From an uncultured Bacteroidia bacterium (GTDB taxonomy: Bacteria > Bacteroidota > Bacteroidia > Bacteroidales > UBA932): a stretch of DNA of 64,000 nt. Each line of letters starts with the position of its first letter. Positions within the stretch are counted from its first letter, which is position 1. The notes under the pieces were generated by a model. That model did no database searches. It worked only from the letters and a program-made list of their open reading frames with translations, and had not been told where the DNA came from. Location of the stretch: assembly GCA_902789395.1 (NCBI GenBank), contig CADANY010000004.1:62001-126000 (forward strand). The letters are read 5' to 3'. Made by a program: the position numbers and the translations under genes. Of this stretch, positions 40,173 through 56,806 are shown piece after piece.

Positions 40173-42050
40173 ATGACGCCGAATGAGGTCCTGAAGCACT
40201 ATTGGGGGTATGAGCGTTTCCGGCCGATGCAGGAAGAAATCATCGCGGAAGCCTTGTCCGGGAAGGATCTTCTCGCCATCCTCCCGACAGGAGGCGGGAA
40301 GTCCGTATGCTTCCAGGTGCCGTCCCTGCTCCGCGATGGGATTACGCTGGTCATTACCCCGCTCATCGCCCTGATGCGGGATCAGGTGAGGAACCTCTCG
40401 CAGCGGGGGATCCGGGCGCTTTGTGTCCATGCCGGGATGTCCCGGAAAGAAGTGGACCTTGCCCTGAACAATGCGGCTTACGGCGATTATAAATTCCTCT
40501 ATCTTTCTCCGGAGCGTCTGTCGACCCCTCTTTTCCTGAATTATATCCGGGTGATGAAAGTTGCCTATCTGGTTGTCGACGAGGCGCATTGTATTTCTCA
40601 GTGGGGCTATGATTTCCGGCCGGATTATCTTCGGATCGGAGAACTCCGGAAAGTTGTTGACGCGCCGCTGCTTGCCTTGACGGCGACGGCTACGCCGGTT
40701 GTGGCGGAGGATATCATGGACCGGCTGGGATTCCGGGAGAAGAATCTGCTCCGAAGCGGTTTCGAGCGTCCGAACCTTTCCTATATCGTCCGGGAGTGCG
40801 AGGATAAGAACGGCCAGCTCCTTTCCGTTTTCAACGGCGTCCCCGGTACGGGAATCGTGTACGTGAGAAACCGGAAAAAGACGGAAGAGCTGTCGGCCTT
40901 CCTGACCTCCGCCGGTTTTTCCTCATCCTTCTACCATGCCGGGCTTTCGGCGGATGTCCGTTCCTCCCGCCAGGAAGACTGGATTTCCGGAAAGACGCGG
41001 ATCATGGTCTGTACCAATGCTTTCGGGATGGGAATCGACAAGCCGGACGTGCGGACCGTGGTCCATTACGACCTCCCCGACTCGCCGGAGGCGTATTTCC
41101 AGGAGGCGGGCCGCGGCGGCCGGGACGGAAAACGCAGTTATGCCGTTCTTTTATGGAACGGAACGGATCTGAAACGGCTCAATCAGATTGAATCGGTCTC
41201 GTTCCCTTCCCTGGAGTATATAGAAGACATCTATCAGAAGATGCACCTTTTCTTCGAGATCCCTTATGACACCGGGACCGGCCGTCAGCTGAAACTGGAT
41301 TTCGGGGCCTTCTGCCGCCGGTTCAACCTGCAGGAATCGCCTGCTTTCCATGCCATCCGCTATATCGGCCAGGAGGGTCACTGGACCTTTACCGAGGACC
41401 TGGATATCAAGACGCGGGTCCAGATTATCGTCGACAGACGGGTGCTCTACGAAGTTGAACTTCCGGATCCGAAAATGCCGGTCGTCCTGGAGATCCTGAT
41501 GCGGCGCTATACGGGGCTCTTCTCTTTTCCCGTTCCGGTTGAGGAGGATTACGTCGCCGAGCGGGCCGGCCTTTCGATCCCTGCCCTCCGGCAGGTCCTG
41601 TACAATCTCGCCCTGGAGCATCTCATCAAGTATATTCCCGCCGACCGGGCGGATGTTGTCTATCTCCATCATGACCGCCTCCGGCCGGGCAATGTCCAAC
41701 TTTCCCCGAAACGGCATGCCATGCTGCGGGATGCCTATCGGGCCCGGAAGGAAGCGATGGTCTCGTATGTGACGGAAGATGAAGAGTGTCGGGAGCGCTT
41801 CCTGCTGCGGTATTTCGGCCAGGAGTCGGGTTCGGACTGCGGGCACTGCGACGTCTGCCGGAGCCGGGTCCGCACCCGGAAAGAGACGGAAGAGCGCATC
41901 GTCGCCTGGGTCCATGGAAAGGGAGGAGCCTATACCCTTCGTGACCTGACCGCAACCTTCGGGAATCCCGCGGCGGAAAACGATTCGGACTTTCTCCGGA
42001 TCCTCCGCGAACTGATCGACCGCGGAGCCGTCCCGCCCTATTCCGACTGA
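40173..42050 (+). CDS. recQ: ATP-dependent DNA helicase RecQ
   Basis: A 625-residue SF2 helicase. Walker A is LPTGGGKSVCFQ, the DEAH box VVDEAHCISQWG, motif VI EAGRGGRDGK, and the zinc-binding part has CRERFLLRYF with CGHCDVCR. A winged-helix RQC-like region follows; no clear HRDC domain is present, as in many short Bacteroidetes RecQ proteins. It unwinds 3'-tailed DNA in recombination and replication repair. The long leader has an inverted repeat. A structured repeat element follows its stop by 12 bases and probably ends the transcript. Confidence 0.95.
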   Translation: MTPNEVLKHYWGYERFRPMQEEIIAEALSGKDLLAILPTGGGKSVCFQVPSLLRDGITLVITPLIALMRDQVRNLSQRGIRALCVHAGMSRKEVDLALNNAAYGDYKFLYLSPERLSTPLFLNYIRVMKVAYLVVDEAHCISQWGYDFRPDYLRIGELRKVVDAPLLALTATATPVVAEDIMDRLGFREKNLLRSGFERPNLSYIVRECEDKNGQLLSVFNGVPGTGIVYVRNRKKTEELSAFLTSAGFSSSFYHAGLSADVRSSRQEDWISGKTRIMVCTNAFGMGIDKPDVRTVVHYDLPDSPEAYFQEAGRGGRDGKRSYAVLLWNGTDLKRLNQIESVSFPSLEYIEDIYQKMHLFFEIPYDTGTGRQLKLDFGAFCRRFNLQESPAFHAIRYIGQEGHWTFTEDLDIKTRVQIIVDRRVLYEVELPDPKMPVVLEILMRRYTGLFSFPVPVEEDYVAERAGLSIPALRQVLYNLALEHLIKYIPADRADVVYLHHDRLRPGNVQLSPKRHAMLRDAYRARKEAMVSYVTEDEECRERFLLRYFGQESGSDCGHCDVCRSRVRTRKETEERIVAWVHGKGGAYTLRDLTATFGNPAAENDSDFLRILRELIDRGAVPPYSD

Positions 42051-42062
42051 TCTCTCTTTCTA

Positions 42063-42175
42063 CCGGATAAGGGTATCCCCTCTGAAACCTATGCCACCCT
42101 CGGCACTATAAGAGGGAGGGGCCCTTTAGGGAAGGGCCGCGAAGCGGCGGTTTCAGAGGGGATACCCTTATCCGG
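42063..42175 (+). repeat. Structured intergenic repeat, copy 1
   Basis: A 113-base element between convergent recQ and the glycerophosphodiesterase gene. The ends form a perfect 26-base inverted repeat (42063-42088 with 42150-42175; CCGGATAAGGGTATCCCC begins it). The 61-base interior (42089-42149) folds into three hairpins: TGCC/GGCA, GGCCCTT/AAGGGCC and CCGC/GCGG. The interior is 55/61 identical to the reverse complement of 53990-54050, while the outer stems have different sequences. It probably acts at least as a bidirectional terminator. No coding capacity was seen. Confidence 0.85.
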
Positions 42176-42189
42176 GATGGAACGGGAGC

Positions 42190-42990
42190 TTAGTTGCGGA
42201 GTTCGCGCTCGCCGAGGATCTGCCGGACGAGTTCGGGCTCATTGGTCGTAATGCAGTCGACGCCGCAATCAATCATCGCCCGGATATCCTCTTCCTTATT
42301 GACCGTCCAGACGTTGACGCTCATCCCGAGATCGTGGGCCTCCTTGACCCATTCCGGGTGGGCATAGAAATGCTTCATGTGGTAGTCGATACCATTGATG
42401 CCCATCTTTTTCAGTTCTGCCGGAGCGATATCTCCGTTGAGATACTGGTTCGTAAAGCCGGGAGCTTTCGTTACCAGGGTCTGGCAGATATGGAGGCTGA
42501 AAGAAATGAAAATGCATCGTTCAGGAATGAAAAGACCCCTTTTCTGAAGGGCGGCGATGACCTTGTCGGTCATCTCGTCTTCGCGCTCAGGGCTGTATTG
42601 TTTTTTCAACTCGACGACAAGGACGGTCTTGTCATTGAGCTTACCCTGGTCAAGGTAAGCGTCGATCGTAGGGATCGCTTCGCCGTCCTGAAGCCGGAAA
42701 GCAGCGAATGCGCTGAGTGGATTCGTCTGGATATCAATGCCTTCATGCGAACGGTCATGATGGACAAGGACCTGTCCGTCACTGGTCAGGTGAAGGTCGA
42801 ACTCACTGCCCCAAAGGCCCATATCCTGGGCTTTCTTGAGCGCAGCGAGGGAATTTTGCGCTCCGTTCGCTTCTTCGGACTGCCATACGCCGCGGTGGGC
42901 GGTGATGGCGACTTTATGCTGGGCGGAAACACAGGTACATGCGGCGAGAAGAGCTGCCGTAAAGATCATTTTTCTGAATGTGGTCGACAT
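42190..42990 (-). CDS. Secreted glycerophosphodiester phosphodiesterase
   Basis: A 266-residue GDPD-family protein with a signal peptide (MIFTAALLAACTCVSAQ region). Catalytic features are ITAHRGVW with the HRG motif, EFDLHLTSDGQVLVHHD with acidic metal ligands and His, and a C-terminal VWTVNKEEDI typical of the family. It should hydrolyse glycerophosphodiesters from phospholipid headgroups or teichoic-like polymers to glycerol-3-phosphate and an alcohol in the periplasm. A -7 box lies at 43012-43019. Confidence 0.92.
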   Translation of the reverse strand: MSTTFRKMIFTAALLAACTCVSAQHKVAITAHRGVWQSEEANGAQNSLAALKKAQDMGLWGSEFDLHLTSDGQVLVHHDRSHEGIDIQTNPLSAFAAFRLQDGEAIPTIDAYLDQGKLNDKTVLVVELKKQYSPEREDEMTDKVIAALQKRGLFIPERCIFISFSLHICQTLVTKAPGFTNQYLNGDIAPAELKKMGINGIDYHMKHFYAHPEWVKEAHDLGMSVNVWTVNKEEDIRAMIDCGVDCITTNEPELVRQILGERELRN

Positions 42991-52448: not shown

Positions 52449-53954
52449 ATGAGATCGGATATTATAGTGATCGGAGGAGGCGCCGCTGGACTGCTGGCTG
52501 CCGTCGGTGCTGCGGAAACCCTTGCGCGGACTGAGAATGGAGGAACGGTGACCGTCCTCGAAAAAATGCCTAAAACCGGACGGAAAATCATGATTACCGG
52601 TAAGGGCCGGTGCAACTTCACGAACGTCAAGGACTGGGCCGGATTCTCGGATCATATCCGGACCGATGTGAATTTCGTCAGCCCGTCCTGGCATAATCTT
52701 CCTCCGGAGAAACTCATCGAGTTACTGCGGTCCAACGGCCTCCGTTCTGTCGTGGAGCGGGGGGACCGGGCATTCCCGCAGTCCCATAATGCAGGAGATG
52801 TTGTCGATACCCTTGTGAGAGCCTGCACCCTGCTCGGCGTGAAGATCGTTACAGGCTGCGAGGTGAAGACAATAGACAAAACGGCCCGCGGCTACTCTCT
52901 TGATTGTATCCGGACGACGGTCAAGGAGTTCCGCCAGCGAACGGACGACGACCGGGATTATGACCGGAGAAATGCGCCTGTCCGCAAGGAAACGACGATT
53001 GAACCGGAAGAGTATTCCTGTCGGAAACTGATTGTTGCTACGGGTGGTCTTTCTTATCCCGGGACCGGTTCGACCGGCGACGGATATATGTGGGCGGAGG
53101 AAATCGGCCATACGGTTACTCCCTGCTTCCCTTCATTGACGGCACTCGTTCCGGCCGGTTACAAATCTGAAAAGAATCCGCTCGCGGAAGAGATCAAGGT
53201 GGCCTTCCGCGGTCAGCGGAGAACGGTTTTCGGCAACCGCAGGGAAGCCCGGATCAATCCGCTTCCGTCTTATTACCCGAAGCTGCAGGGACACATCGAG
53301 CGGATTACCCCGATGTCTGAAATCGGAGAACTGTTCAACGGCAATGCTTTGGAAAATGTCCGGCTCACGCTTTATATTGACGGAAATGAAGCCCAAAGCG
53401 AGTTTGGAGATCTCGAGTTTACGGATGGAGGAATCGAAGGTCCGATCGGCTTCCAGGTAAGCCGGAAAGCGGTCAAGGCGATCATGAACGGATCCAAGGT
53501 TTCCGCCGTCCTCGACATGAAACCGGCTGTTGAGACTGAAAAACTCAGCGAGGATATCCACCAGAAATGGGAAGAAATCCTGGCGGATCCGAGAAGCAGC
53601 GGGCAGGATTTCAAGCGGCTTTTCCGTATTCTGCTCGGCAAACTGATCCCGTGGAACCTTACGCTCGCTTTTCTCAGGACGAATCCGAAAGTAAGTGTTG
53701 ATTCGCTGGCAGAGCGTCTGAAGAACTGGCGTTTTGAGATCGTTGGATTTGTCGGCTTTGAGCGTTCCGTTATTACCGCCGGTGGCATTTCGACGGATGA
53801 GGTGGTAGCAAAAACCCTCGAATCCAAGAAATCCGAGGGTCTGTATTTCTGTGGTGAGGTCCTTGATATGGATTCAGACACAGGCGGTTATAATCTCCAG
53901 ACAGCTTTTTGTACCGGCTATCTCGCCGGCATTTCCGCCGCCAAAGCCCTGTAA
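52449..53954 (+). CDS. HI0933-like (YhiN-type) FAD-dependent protein
   Basis: A 501-residue flavoprotein. The dinucleotide-binding motif is IIVIGGGAAGLLAAV near residues 5-19, followed by TGKGRCNFTN, typical of the HI0933/YhiN family, and LIVATGGLSYPGTGSTGDGY. The C-terminal GGISTDEV and LDMDSDTGGYNLQTAFCTG complete the family pattern. The enzyme activity of this family is not established. Compared with my recollection of the family, a highly charged stretch near residues 155-190 (EFRQRTDDDRDYDRRN) looks like an insertion, making it about 90 residues longer than many members. Confidence 0.9.
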   Translation: MRSDIIVIGGGAAGLLAAVGAAETLARTENGGTVTVLEKMPKTGRKIMITGKGRCNFTNVKDWAGFSDHIRTDVNFVSPSWHNLPPEKLIELLRSNGLRSVVERGDRAFPQSHNAGDVVDTLVRACTLLGVKIVTGCEVKTIDKTARGYSLDCIRTTVKEFRQRTDDDRDYDRRNAPVRKETTIEPEEYSCRKLIVATGGLSYPGTGSTGDGYMWAEEIGHTVTPCFPSLTALVPAGYKSEKNPLAEEIKVAFRGQRRTVFGNRREARINPLPSYYPKLQGHIERITPMSEIGELFNGNALENVRLTLYIDGNEAQSEFGDLEFTDGGIEGPIGFQVSRKAVKAIMNGSKVSAVLDMKPAVETEKLSEDIHQKWEEILADPRSSGQDFKRLFRILLGKLIPWNLTLAFLRTNPKVSVDSLAERLKNWRFEIVGFVGFERSVITAGGISTDEVVAKTLESKKSEGLYFCGEVLDMDSDTGGYNLQTAFCTGYLAGISAAKAL

Positions 53955-53965
53955 AACATTTTTCC

Positions 53966-54074
53966 CGTAGGGGGTGCTCCTCCTGAAACCGCCGCTTTGC
54001 GGCCCCTCCCCAAGGGGCCCCTCCCTCTGATAATGCCGAGGGTGGCATAGGTTTTAGGAGGAGCACCCCCTGCG
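53966..54074 (-). repeat. Structured intergenic repeat, copy 2
   Basis: A 109-base element between the convergent HI0933-like and DUF4861 genes. Outer stem 53966-53989 pairs with 54051-54074 over 24 positions, two of them G-T wobbles. Its sequence (CGTAGGGGGTGCTCC at the left) is unrelated to that of copy 1 except next to the core. The 61-base interior (53990-54050), read on the minus strand, is 55/61 identical to copy 1 and folds into the same three hairpins. One stem pair changes from T-A to C-G, a compensatory difference. It starts 11 bases past the HI0933-like stop and ends 11 bases before the DUF4861 stop. Confidence 0.85.
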
Positions 54075-54085
54075 GAAATAGGTAA

Positions 54086-54952
54086 CTACTGTGCTTTTAC
54101 GAGGGCGAACCAATCGGCAGAGGTCTTGAGGTCCGCTTTTGACCAGCAGGAGCCGAAGCTGTAGGCTACAGGCTGCCCGGAAGTGATGCGGCGGATCAGA
54201 AGGCCATGGTCAAGTTCCTCTGATACAATCACATCTTCTGCCCCCGGAAGTACGATGGCAACCCCGAGCATTCCGTCCTCCGGCTCGACGCTCTGGTCCG
54301 ATGCATGTTCCCAGATTGCATAGCGGTCGCTCTCGCAACACTCTTCCACAATCGTTTGCTGTGCTCCGTGCCGCTTGATCCCTGCCGCGATGGCAAGCGT
54401 GTCGGTTCCGGTAAAGGTATAGACATCCTCCACCTGCCCGAAATAAGAATCGGCGCAGATCGTCACCTTTTTATCTAGCGATACACGAATGCCTTCCGCC
54501 GCTTCCCATTCAGGATAATGCAATGCGAAGACAACCTTATCCGGCGTCGTCTCCAGCACTTCGCAGGACCGGTAGTTCGTAGCGGGATAGCAAAGCTTTC
54601 CGCCGATCATCGGAACGGAAGCGCCTCCGCCGAGGCTGACGGCTACCTTGTAGCAGTCCTTGCCGCCGTGGTCGTGATGGTAATAGGAACCGTCTTCCAT
54701 CGCACCGGCATACCAGGAGTCGGCAACGAGGGCTCCCGGAAGTTTGACCCAGATGTCCAGGCCCGGCGATGTCGGGTTCCCCTCAAGGGCTTTTCCATAG
54801 AAACGGCCGGCGATGAGGTTGTTCTCGAAAACGAAATCATCCGCCCGCTCGGGTACGGGCCGGGCCATGACTTTCTGTTCCTGCGTTTTCTGCCGGCAGG
54901 CTGTCAGGCCGGCGGCTGCGATGACAAGGATCGCGAGTAATACTCTTTTCAT
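54086..54952 (-). CDS. DUF4861 lipoprotein of the pectin locus
   Basis: A 288-residue protein with a lipobox (AAGLTAC, Cys near residue 19). The body matches DUF4861 proteins, with ADSWYAGAMEDGSYYHHDHGGKDCY and a beta-rich fold. DUF4861 proteins are repeatedly found next to uronate and rhamnogalacturonan catabolism genes in Bacteroidetes; some relatives carry glycan lyase or hydrolase annotations, but I cannot assign a reaction. It follows kduI by four bases and is last in the kduD-kduI operon. A structured repeat marks the operon end. Confidence 0.75.
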   Translation of the reverse strand: MKRVLLAILVIAAAGLTACRQKTQEQKVMARPVPERADDFVFENNLIAGRFYGKALEGNPTSPGLDIWVKLPGALVADSWYAGAMEDGSYYHHDHGGKDCYKVAVSLGGGASVPMIGGKLCYPATNYRSCEVLETTPDKVVFALHYPEWEAAEGIRVSLDKKVTICADSYFGQVEDVYTFTGTDTLAIAAGIKRHGAQQTIVEECCESDRYAIWEHASDQSVEPEDGMLGVAIVLPGAEDVIVSEELDHGLLIRRITSGQPVAYSFGSCWSKADLKTSADWFALVKAQ

Positions 54953-54956
54953 GGGG

Positions 54957-55799
54957 CTATCTTAAATCTTTCGTGGCGCACCAGTCCATATCGTTGTAGT
55001 CGTCGTTTTCTCCGCACATGCCCCAGATGAACGTGTAGTTCCGGGTTGCGCAGGCAGAGTGGATGCTCCACTGGGGAGAGATCACGGCTTGTTCGTTGTG
55101 CATCCAGATATGCCGGGTTTCCTGGGGCTCGCCCATGAAATGGCAGACGGCGGCGTCATCCGGTACCTCAAAATAGAAGTATACCTCCATGCGGCGGTCG
55201 TGGGTATGGGCAGGCATGGTATTCCAGGTGCTGCCGGGAGCCAGTTCGGTCATGCCCATCTGGAGCTGGCAGCAGGGAACGACTTCTTTGACCAACAGGC
55301 GGTTGATCGTCCGTTCATTGGACTCTTCGAGCGATCCGAGATGCATGACAACGGCGTCCTTCTTCGTCACTTTCTTGACTCCGGTCTCGCGGTGGGCGGT
55401 CGCCGAGCAGAAATAAAAGCGGGCGGGGGAGGCAGGATCATCACTGCGGAAGGTTACATGGCGGTTCCCACGTCCGATATAGAGGGCCTCCTTATAATCG
55501 AGGTGGTAGACTTCTTCTCCGACGACAACGCTGCCGGCACCCCCGACATTGATGATGCCGATTTCGCGCCGCTGCGTGAAATAATCGGCCCTGAGGATTT
55601 CAGGAGCGGAAAGAAGCAGATCCTCCCCGGCGGGGACGGCGCCCCCGGTGATGATCCTGTCGAACATTGAATAGACCATATTGATCTCATTCGGAACCAT
55701 TACATTCTCAACGAGATACTCCTTTCTGAGCCTGTCCGTATCGTAGTGCTTCGCATCGAGATTACCCGACGCCTGGCGTACTTGACAATTGATTTTCAT
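54957..55799 (-). CDS. kduI: 5-keto-4-deoxyuronate isomerase
   Basis: A 280-residue cupin enzyme matching KduI throughout. The N-terminal part has YLVENVMVPNEINMVYSMFDR; the metal site is in PAHTHDRRMEVYFYFE (His, His, Glu) with a further His in QWSIHSACATRNY. It converts 5-keto-4-deoxyuronate, from unsaturated galacturonate or glucuronate, to 2,5-diketo-3-deoxygluconate. It lies 45 bases after kduD in the same operon, and the pathway continues with KduD. Length is normal. Confidence 0.95.
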   Translation of the reverse strand: MKINCQVRQASGNLDAKHYDTDRLRKEYLVENVMVPNEINMVYSMFDRIITGGAVPAGEDLLLSAPEILRADYFTQRREIGIINVGGAGSVVVGEEVYHLDYKEALYIGRGNRHVTFRSDDPASPARFYFCSATAHRETGVKKVTKKDAVVMHLGSLEESNERTINRLLVKEVVPCCQLQMGMTELAPGSTWNTMPAHTHDRRMEVYFYFEVPDDAAVCHFMGEPQETRHIWMHNEQAVISPQWSIHSACATRNYTFIWGMCGENDDYNDMDWCATKDLR

Positions 55800-55820
55800 A
55801 ACAAAGGCATTCTTTATAAC

Positions 55821-55846
55821 GTCATTCTGAACGAAGTGAAGAATCT
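55821..55846. repeat. Dispersed-type short repeat (CATTCTGA...GAAGAATCT)
   Basis: Between kduI and kduD, overlapping the kduD stop by two bases, is GTCATTCTGAACGAAGTGAA followed by GAATCT. Its half GAACGAAGTGAAGAATCT matches 62449-62466 at 16 of 18 positions. The element is an imperfect palindrome (AGATTC/GAATCT-like ends). I recall similar motifs (CATTCTGAGCGAAGCGAAG) scattered through many bacterial genomes. Confidence 0.55.
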
Positions 55847-56648
55847 ACTTCGGCTGTTTTCCGATATATGCAAGGATACCGCCGTCCACATAGAGAATAT
55901 GGCCGTTTACGGCGTCGGAAGCGTGGGAAGCCAGGAAAACGGCCGGTCCGCCGAGTTCGGAAGGTTCGAGCCAGCGGCCTGCCGGCGTTTTGGCGCAGAT
56001 GAACAAATCGAAGGGATGGCGGCTGCCGTCAGGCTGTCTCTCGCGCAGGGGAGCGGTCTGGGGCGTCGCGATATAACCGGGGCCGATCCCATTGCACTGG
56101 ATGTTGTACTCGCCGTATTCGGAACAGATATTCCGTGTCAGCATTTTCAGGCCACCCTTTGCGGCAGCGTAGGCGGAGACCGTTTCCCGGCCGAGTTCAG
56201 ACATCATGGAGCAGATATTGATGATTTTTCCTTCGCGGCGTTCCATCATTTCCGGAAGTACGGCGGAGGAAACGATAAAGGGTGCCACCAGGTCCACGTC
56301 AATCACCTGCTGGAATTCCTCCCTCTTCATTTCATGCATCGGAATCCGCTTGATAATCCCGGCATTGTTGACGAGAATATCGATCTGTCCGACTTCCTGA
56401 TGGATCTTCTCCACAAGGGCCTTTACAGCCTTTTCATCGGTTACGTCACACACGTATCCGTGGACATTCGTGATGCCGGCTTCCCGGTAGTTGTTGAGTC
56501 CCCGTTCCAGGGCCGCTTCGTTGATGTCATTGAAAATGATGTTCTTGACGCCGGCGGCGACGAAAGCCTTGGCGATGTTGAAACCGATGCCGTAGGAAGC
56601 TCCGGTGATCCAGGCGTTTTTGCCTTCGAGAGAAAATAAATTAGCCAT
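55845..56648 (-). CDS. kduD: 2-dehydro-3-deoxy-D-gluconate 5-dehydrogenase
   Basis: A 267-residue short-chain dehydrogenase. The cofactor motif is TGASYGIGFNIAKAF near residues 16-30, NNAG is present, and the catalytic SxnYxxxK is in SELGRETVSAYAAAKGG. It reduces 2,5-diketo-3-deoxygluconate to KDG with NADH in pectin and glycosaminoglycan catabolism, after KduI. It heads a kduD-kduI-DUF4861 operon driven by a consensus promoter that abuts a CAAACGTTTG operator. SDR sequence alone would leave the substrate open, but the neighbouring kduI makes the call firm. Confidence 0.93.
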   Translation of the reverse strand: MANLFSLEGKNAWITGASYGIGFNIAKAFVAAGVKNIIFNDINEAALERGLNNYREAGITNVHGYVCDVTDEKAVKALVEKIHQEVGQIDILVNNAGIIKRIPMHEMKREEFQQVIDVDLVAPFIVSSAVLPEMMERREGKIINICSMMSELGRETVSAYAAAKGGLKMLTRNICSEYGEYNIQCNGIGPGYIATPQTAPLRERQPDGSRHPFDLFICAKTPAGRWLEPSELGGPAVFLASHASDAVNGHILYVDGGILAYIGKQPK

Positions 56649-56677
56649 ATCGTTTATGAGTTAGTTTCGTATCTTCG

Positions 56678-56708
56678 CAAAGATACAAACGTTTGCGCAG
56701 AAATCAAA
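56678..56708 (-). promoter_or_regulatory. Promoter of the kduD operon
   Basis: On the minus strand TTTG (56708-56705), a 19-base spacer and TATCTTTG (56685-56678). The operator CAAACGTTTG fills the ten bases directly upstream of the -7 box, so a bound regulator would block the promoter. Confidence 0.7.
56686..56695. promoter_or_regulatory. LacI-type operator, kduD side
   Basis: A perfect 10-base palindrome CAAACGTTTG, identical to that at 56781-56790, directly upstream of the kduD -7 box. CG-centred palindromes of this kind are typical LacI-family sites, and the LacI gene is adjacent. Confidence 0.7.
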
Positions 56709-56767
56709 TTAATTTTAAAGAATTTTACAAAAAAATTACAGGATTTTGGCGAAAAATTGAAAAAAAA

Positions 56768-56798
56768 TTTGGATTTTGTGCAAACGTTTGTATTTTTG
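56768..56798 (+). promoter_or_regulatory. Promoter of the LacI-pectinase operon
   Basis: TTTG (56768-56771), a 19-base spacer and TATTTTTG (56791-56798). The spacer ends with the operator CAAACGTTTG. The ATG at 56807 lies eight bases after the -7 box, so the leader is only a few bases. Confidence 0.7.
56781..56790. promoter_or_regulatory. LacI-type operator, regulator side
   Basis: The second CAAACGTTTG palindrome, directly upstream of the regulator's own -7 box. The distance between the two operator centres is 95 bases, about nine helical turns, so looping between the divergent promoters is possible. Confidence 0.7.
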
Positions 56799-56806
56799 CG
56801 GTTGGA

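Follow-up and report, generated by a model that had tools for sequence, protein, structure and literature searches.

The palindromic segment at position 42,063 of the window, by which we mean the whole 64,000-nt stretch of DNA that was analyzed, probably belongs to an interspersed palindromic element of about 115–170 bp that is a selfish repeat and not a dedicated terminator. The element is dispersed, occurs at homologous sites as one block or not at all, survives in frame inside genes, changes its two arms in pairs and inverts in place. The initial annotation had seen in two copies a selected structured element, perhaps a small mobile palindrome, and this description holds up: there are about 34 copies, the pairing is kept in nearly all of them, compensatory changes occur in the outer stem P1, the hairpins P3 and P4 and the pseudoknot, and whole copies come and go as blocks.

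Both window copies lie between converging genes, as was first noted, at the distances from the stop codons given in Table 1; the second corresponds to G000:C4:115963-116077 in the covariance-model search, G000 being the window's own genome (2.66 Mb). Their 61-base interiors are indeed identical at 55 of 61 positions, with six differences, and the T-A pair in the middle hairpin of copy 1 that becomes C-G in copy 2 is real, being read directly from both sequences. Some details required adjustment. The outer stem of copy 1 pairs perfectly as claimed, over 27 rather than 26 bp, and that of copy 2 comprises 26 bp with two mismatches. The three proposed hairpins can be recognized as units, which are better described as a pseudoknotted P2 plus the hairpins P3 and P4, all enclosed within P1. 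The predicted RNA fold is far more stable than that of dinucleotide shuffles (z −8.4 to −10.8, both strands), as is the DNA fold of copy 1 relative to its shuffles (z −10.6 to −12.0). In the window, Rfam gave no match to the element at gathering level, a tRNA being the sole hit, and at E up to 10 it gave chance-level matches far below thresholds.

Table 1. Positions in the window of the two element copies, their parts and the neighboring genes
Feature	Coordinates	Strand	Remarks
Copy 1, left arm of outer stem P1	42063..42089	+	27 nt, private to the site; perfect reverse complement of 42149-42175
Copy 1, conserved core	42090..42148	+	59 nt; core also in ~34 genome copies and in 192 copies over all loci examined
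P2 hairpin TGCC-ACCCTC-GGCA	42092..42105	+	Alignments A1/A2; subfamilies differ in the upper stem by paired changes
Pseudoknot strand CCCTC (P2 loop)	42097..42101	+	Pairs with 42112-42116; covaries over 192 copies
Pseudoknot partner GAGGG	42112..42116	+	Pairs with CCCTC 42097..42101
P3 hairpin CCC-N-GGG	42122..42131	+	Most variable part, often longer in other copies
P4 hairpin GCCGC-GAA-GCGGC	42136..42148	+	Two-sided changes at two pairs (alignment A2)
Copy 1, right arm of P1	42149..42175	+	Perfect complement of left arm
Copy 2, whole element	53965..54075	-	Arms 54050-54075 and 53965-53990; core 53991-54049
RecQ-type helicase gene	40173..42050	+	Pfam DEAD, Helicase_C, RecQ_Zn_bind; end 12 bp before copy 1
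Glycerophosphodiester phosphodiesterase gene	42190..42990	-	Pfam GDPD; end 14 bp after copy 1
HI0933-like flavoprotein gene	52449..53954	+	Pfam HI0933_like; end 10 bp before copy 2
DUF4861 gene	54086..54952	-	Pfam DUF4861; end 10 bp after copy 2

The unit is built in the order arm, pseudoknotted core, arm, with a total length of about 115–170 bp (mostly 115–160 bp for the G000 copies). Its core is nearly invariant in alignments, reading GCCACCCTCGGC...AGAGGGAGGGGCCC...GGGAGGGG, and can be summarized as an invariant GCCACCCTCGGC...AGAGGGAGGGG in an element of ~115 bp. Because both strands change together across 192 copies (CCCTC/GAGGG in 179, CCCGT/ACGGG in nine, CCCAT/ATGGG in two and unclear in two), the sequences support a pseudoknot between the P2 loop and the downstream strand. 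P3 is the most variable segment and is often a longer hairpin, and P4 changes in pairs. The outer stem P1 has a near-constant length (median 27–28 bp) and another sequence at nearly every site. In alignment A2 (18 copies) all 28 of 28 P1 pairs show two-sided changes, with 97.6% of cells paired, and for the whole structure the paired fraction is 98.3% versus 45–57% when the partners are slid, although these pairing counts, like the mismatch counts below, overstate the evidence since copies that are related do not count as independent. A2 was used for counting covariation because the MAFFT alignment A1 of all copies shifts the arms by one column where P2 is longer. Among 5057 P1 pairs, again from related copies, G.T mismatches on the core strand exceed A.C (121 versus 46, p=6e-9), and for this reason folding of the core strand seems to matter. 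Within G000 and its nearest relative found, G281, the two mismatches occur in P1 28 times each, as expected if orientation is often reset.

The arms have further properties of their own. They tend to self-fold (mean −7.2 versus −4.4 kcal/mol for shuffled arms; 21 of 77 at p<0.05), and in G000 copies they carry a purine run and then a pyrimidine run (A2 columns 5–12 and 16–22) whose bases differ per copy. Five copies at different sites (G000:C7:96568, G000:C17:18146, G000:C5:123944, G281:C7:6667 and G281:C20:22141) harbor a second hairpin, GGGGTCCCCGAGAATCTCTGATTCTTGGGGTGCTCT or near-identical, nested in the P3 loop; this nested hairpin may be mobile, because the copy matched to G000:C7:96568, G281:C20:292267, is without it.

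Searching the genome with the core reveals a family of about 34 copies and not two: a DNA search of G000 returns ~30 and the covariance model R2 returns 34, and R2 likewise finds 34 copies in G281 and 15–27 in five other species. Within the genus, which comprises rumen/gut Bacteroidales, 34 of 61 sampled genomes have matches. Across the order, matches at E<=1e-6 are confined to 3 of 294 genomes, namely G000, one from another genus of the family and one from another family, so that the repeat is nearly absent in the rest of the order and patchy even inside the genus. The records that match are MAGs of Bacteroidales from the rumen, omasum and gut, and every copy found is from this order. Carriage by phages was considered and rejected, as the core pattern had no match in IMG/VR. 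In G463, the carrier from another family, eight copies (L216, L219, L220, L222, L224, L226, L228 and L230) have one common arm pair (GAAGGAATATGCTTTGAAGACC and its partner) and also part of the outer flanks in common. This is recent local spread, unlike what is seen in the home genus, and it follows from the common arms that arms move with the core. Elsewhere, G000:C10:18315 and G000:C5:74835 possess nearly identical arms (AAAGGAGAGGAGTATCTCTCTGAAA) at unrelated sites, with cores that differ at several positions, and L109 and L365 are side-by-side composite copies with part of the arms and core in common, possibly tandem duplications or nested insertions.

Numerous copies reside inside protein-coding genes, where translation yields open frames across the element in rsmH, murE, ribF, truB, trmB, yggS and others, with the flanking domains of these named genes confirmed by Pfam. 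Choosing copies by the codon usage of both flanks alone, to avoid selecting on openness, we found 37 with coding sequence on both sides, 18 in plus and 19 in minus orientation; 35 are in frame and 33 also open, as compared to an unconstrained expectation of ~5.5 of 37, given that 44% of element frames are open. Sequence evidence of this kind argues that the intragenic insert is translated. In the rsmH of G000, 74 residues separate two conserved motifs versus 26 in typical genus members, and therefore the whole unit with both arms has been gained; a search with rsmH over 120 genomes gave matches mostly split at the insert position. The cores in yggS and truB have opposite orientations in different species, with an open frame either way, so that one DNA segment encodes two unrelated peptides. 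Translational skipping, which is mentioned for yeast mitochondrial palindromes (PMC6649704), was considered and is not needed, as the frames are kept and open. The rsmH loop of three other genomes (G147, G191 and G019; loci L236, L238 and L241) carries insertions different from that of G000, some of them palindromic with weak R2 matches and one reading ...RRSFADAQNDRMDG..., and this loop seems to be a repeated landing place for coding repeats.

Sites matched between species show how the element changes over time. Comparison of flanks between G000 and G281 identifies about two dozen shared sites, and at ~10 of 21 the flanks are collinear but enclose cores of opposite orientation. When all loci are taken together, orientation agrees in 47 matched pairs and is opposite in 47, counts whose pairs overlap in membership, are not independent and are in some cases distant. 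The clearest case is yggS, where L202 and L292 have flanks that are 88% identical and a core that is 100% identical over 107 nt (107/107) and inverted. Distinctive cores are common to both species, such as the unusual P3 CCCGGTCG[A/T]AAGACCGGG in G000:C12:3687 and G281:C27:147315 and the long private P3 in G000:C5:160602 and G281:C23:59671, which indicates turning in place rather than replacement. Misassembly is an unlikely cause of the inversions, judging from element length alone, because the element (115–170 bp) is about one short read long. The 61 matched pairs with alignable arms display 310 changes, made up of 248 paired double changes, 49 one-sided changes and 13 other double changes; therefore, the arms change readily, but together. 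At matched sites, including intergenic ones, conservation is much higher in the core than in the arms, a pattern that sits less easily with a selfish repeat and could point to a function at host level or to repeated replacement of the core.

Alleles without the element provide a complementary view. G281 is without it at several G000 sites. At G000:C17:18146 its allele consists of a 13-bp hairpin formed by the outer halves of the arms, its alleles at window copy 1, ribF and C13:49724 keep one arm-like piece, and its allele at C12:51606 has neither arm; an empty allele with neither arm is also seen when L342 is compared with L323. Some of those G281 alleles that retain an arm-like piece may have arisen by deletion and so need not represent ancestral empty sites. 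Divergence between filled and empty alleles is too great to place the ends of the insertion or a target-site duplication. The retained arm-like pieces also suggested that the arms might be inverted target duplications; as a general rule this was rejected, since other empty alleles lack both arms and rsmH gained the whole unit.

Given the position of both window copies, an elaborate bidirectional terminator or a 3′-end stabilizer, whose long stem would serve both genes by halting RNA polymerase or blocking 3′–5′ exonucleases, was a natural proposal, and it draws on the very stable fold. When further copies are tabulated, this position recurs in part: among the 34 G000 copies, whose placement is approximate as it derives from simple codon-usage gene calls, ~13 lie between convergent genes, mostly 4–20 bp from the stops, and no clear copy occupies a divergent, promoter-bearing gap, but six are inside genes and the rest are mostly in co-directional gaps. 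Neither window site has the T-run or U-tract of an intrinsic (Rho-independent) terminator. In the window 9 of 47 neighboring gene pairs are convergent, and the seven others abut or overlap (−22 to 13 bp) with no hairpin; hairpins are thus not general at convergent ends here. Considering also that most copies are not convergent, that many are in frame within open reading frames and that the core flips freely, with coding copies in either orientation, we regard this role as unlikely and do not retain the terminator proposed initially. Copies lying inside genes at random had been named in advance as evidence against the proposal. The intragenic location does tell against a terminator, yet these copies are non-random, the frame being kept. 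A variant in which the arms are terminators of the host, hairpins already in place whose loops received a 60-nt core, would account for the simple 13-bp hairpin of the G281 allele at G000:C17:18146. It is hard to reconcile with the near-constant arm length, with pairing that runs up to the core and no leftover loop, with the missing arms of other empty alleles (L342 versus L323; rsmH) or with the single arm pair of the eight G463 copies, and we consider it highly improbable.

The inversions raise another scenario, an active inverton whose core is flipped by a site-specific recombinase, thereby varying protein C-termini or loops. About half of the matched sites are inverted in place and the frames of yggS and truB are open in both orientations, as such a switch would predict; the arms, however, are private to each site and offer no common recombination site outside the core, there is no evidence of mixed orientation inside one genome, and flipping seems not to be fast, as the closest matched pair (94–96% flank identity) has an unchanged orientation. 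Passive small inversions between palindromic arms are moreover known elsewhere (PMC2903610), and a dedicated switch is, in our estimate, quite unlikely. The superior conservation of the core at matched intergenic sites, the covariation of the pseudoknot and the excess of G.T on the core strand could alternatively reflect an RNA, either the product of a structured RNA gene or a cis-regulatory element, that the host maintains at every site. The element, however, keeps to no particular strand relative to genes, has inserted into unrelated housekeeping genes, is patchy even in the genus and has no Rfam match, making this very unlikely. By eye, and in keeping with the lack of an Rfam hit, no conserved residues matching a hammerhead, HDV or twister-like ribozyme or an integron attC site were found, and these candidates were set aside.

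For the reading that we prefer, a selfish palindromic repeat, a plausible course of events can be outlined. The element may have spread with the help of a trans-acting enzyme that works on the folded strand of the core. Where copies broke genes or promoters they would be purged, leaving those at gene 3′ ends and in frame-compatible loops, and hairpin-templated strand switching in replication (quasi-palindrome correction) would keep the arms complementary and invert the center. Insertion was not caught in action, which weighs against a mobile element. An HUH/Y1 (RAYT-like) transposase is the best candidate mobilizer, by statistical association only: a Y1_Tnp domain is encoded in 32 of 34 element-bearing versus 14 of 27 element-free genomes of the genus (p=2e-4, kinship ignored) and, among the more complete ones, in 18 of 19 versus 5 of 13. 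The domain is present in G000, at C2:31156 and C10:44308, and had no match in the carriers G417 and G463, and no element copy was seen within ~1.5 kb of four Y1 loci (L378–L381). It is tempting, if rather doubtful, to go further and envision a new class of mobile palindromes in which the folded, pseudoknotted core strand is the substrate of an HUH (Y1) transposase or a related enzyme, the arms undergo continuous rewriting yet are held complementary by this same fold-back chemistry, and the center flips frequently enough for essential proteins to alternate between two peptide loops from opposite strands.

The initial annotation recognized no described family. This stands for the sequence, which has no Rfam match, and no Bacteroidales family of this sort turned up in a search of open-licence papers, but the kind is already known. 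In kind, the element comes closest to the Rickettsia palindromic elements (RPEs), which were reportedly described by Ogata and colleagues in 2000 and 2002 and which have counterparts in Wolbachia. RPEs are dispersed palindromes of about 100–150 bp that occupy gaps between genes and also sit in frame within unrelated ones, and whose mobilizer is not encoded (PMC10969869), and they are reported to lose repeat identity over time (PMC6649704). Our element resembles them as a palindrome of ~100–150 bp with many copies, in-frame insertion in unrelated proteins and a mobilizer that is not encoded, a likeness in description. Unlike the fading repeat identity of RPEs, its arms stay complementary while their sequence changes (248 of 310 changed pairs), and it further differs by its conserved pseudoknot core, its in-place inversion and its phylum, Bacteroidota.

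Other systems share individual traits. Like REP/BIME/REPIN sequences with their RAYTs, the element is a short palindrome that is found at the 3′ ends of genes and probably depends on an enzyme in trans for its movement, and Y1/HUH transposase genes are enriched in element-bearing genomes, if not matched in all of them; unlike REPs, its copies do not flank Y1 genes at the four loci. REPs are reported to measure 20–40 bp and to bear a GTAG or CGTC tag at one end (PMC3733652), and the element, at ~115 bp, has no such tagged hairpin. It departs from classical MITEs in having no fixed terminal inverted repeats across copies in the home genus, although the G463 copies do share arms. Inversion between inverted repeats, here seen between genomes, is shared with invertons. 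Nematomorph mitochondria contain perfect inverted repeats in coding genes that are kept perfect, possibly by the template switching that has been proposed, and are similar in this intragenic placement; they differ in being mitochondrial, with arms of up to 142 bp and no dispersed common core described (PMC6649704). In the chloroplast trnH-psbA spacer, a segment enclosed by palindromic arms frequently undergoes in-place inversion, including among members of one species (PMC2903610), an inversion of the kind seen for the core here; unlike the element, that spacer is a single non-coding region, not a dispersed repeat with a conserved core.

In-frame palindromic repeats in essential genes were already known from Rickettsiales. 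Now that they have been found in a gut/rumen genus that is large and free-living, their origin and spread can be tested across many species. The combination of a conserved pseudoknot, arms that change yet remain complementary, and inversion that keeps the frame on either strand offers natural replicates in which to study template switching, the maintenance of palindromes and the tolerance of proteins to peptide inserts.

Two additional features of the window deserve mention. An open reading frame at 55746-55900 begins ...NVILNEVKNLL..., a peptide that we take to be encoded by another dispersed repeat, one that is widespread in metagenome genomes. At 56676-56800, beside a LacI-type regulator gene, two copies of CAAACGTTTG are arranged in a 24-bp inverted repeat, 77 bp apart, and are probably operators of that regulator.
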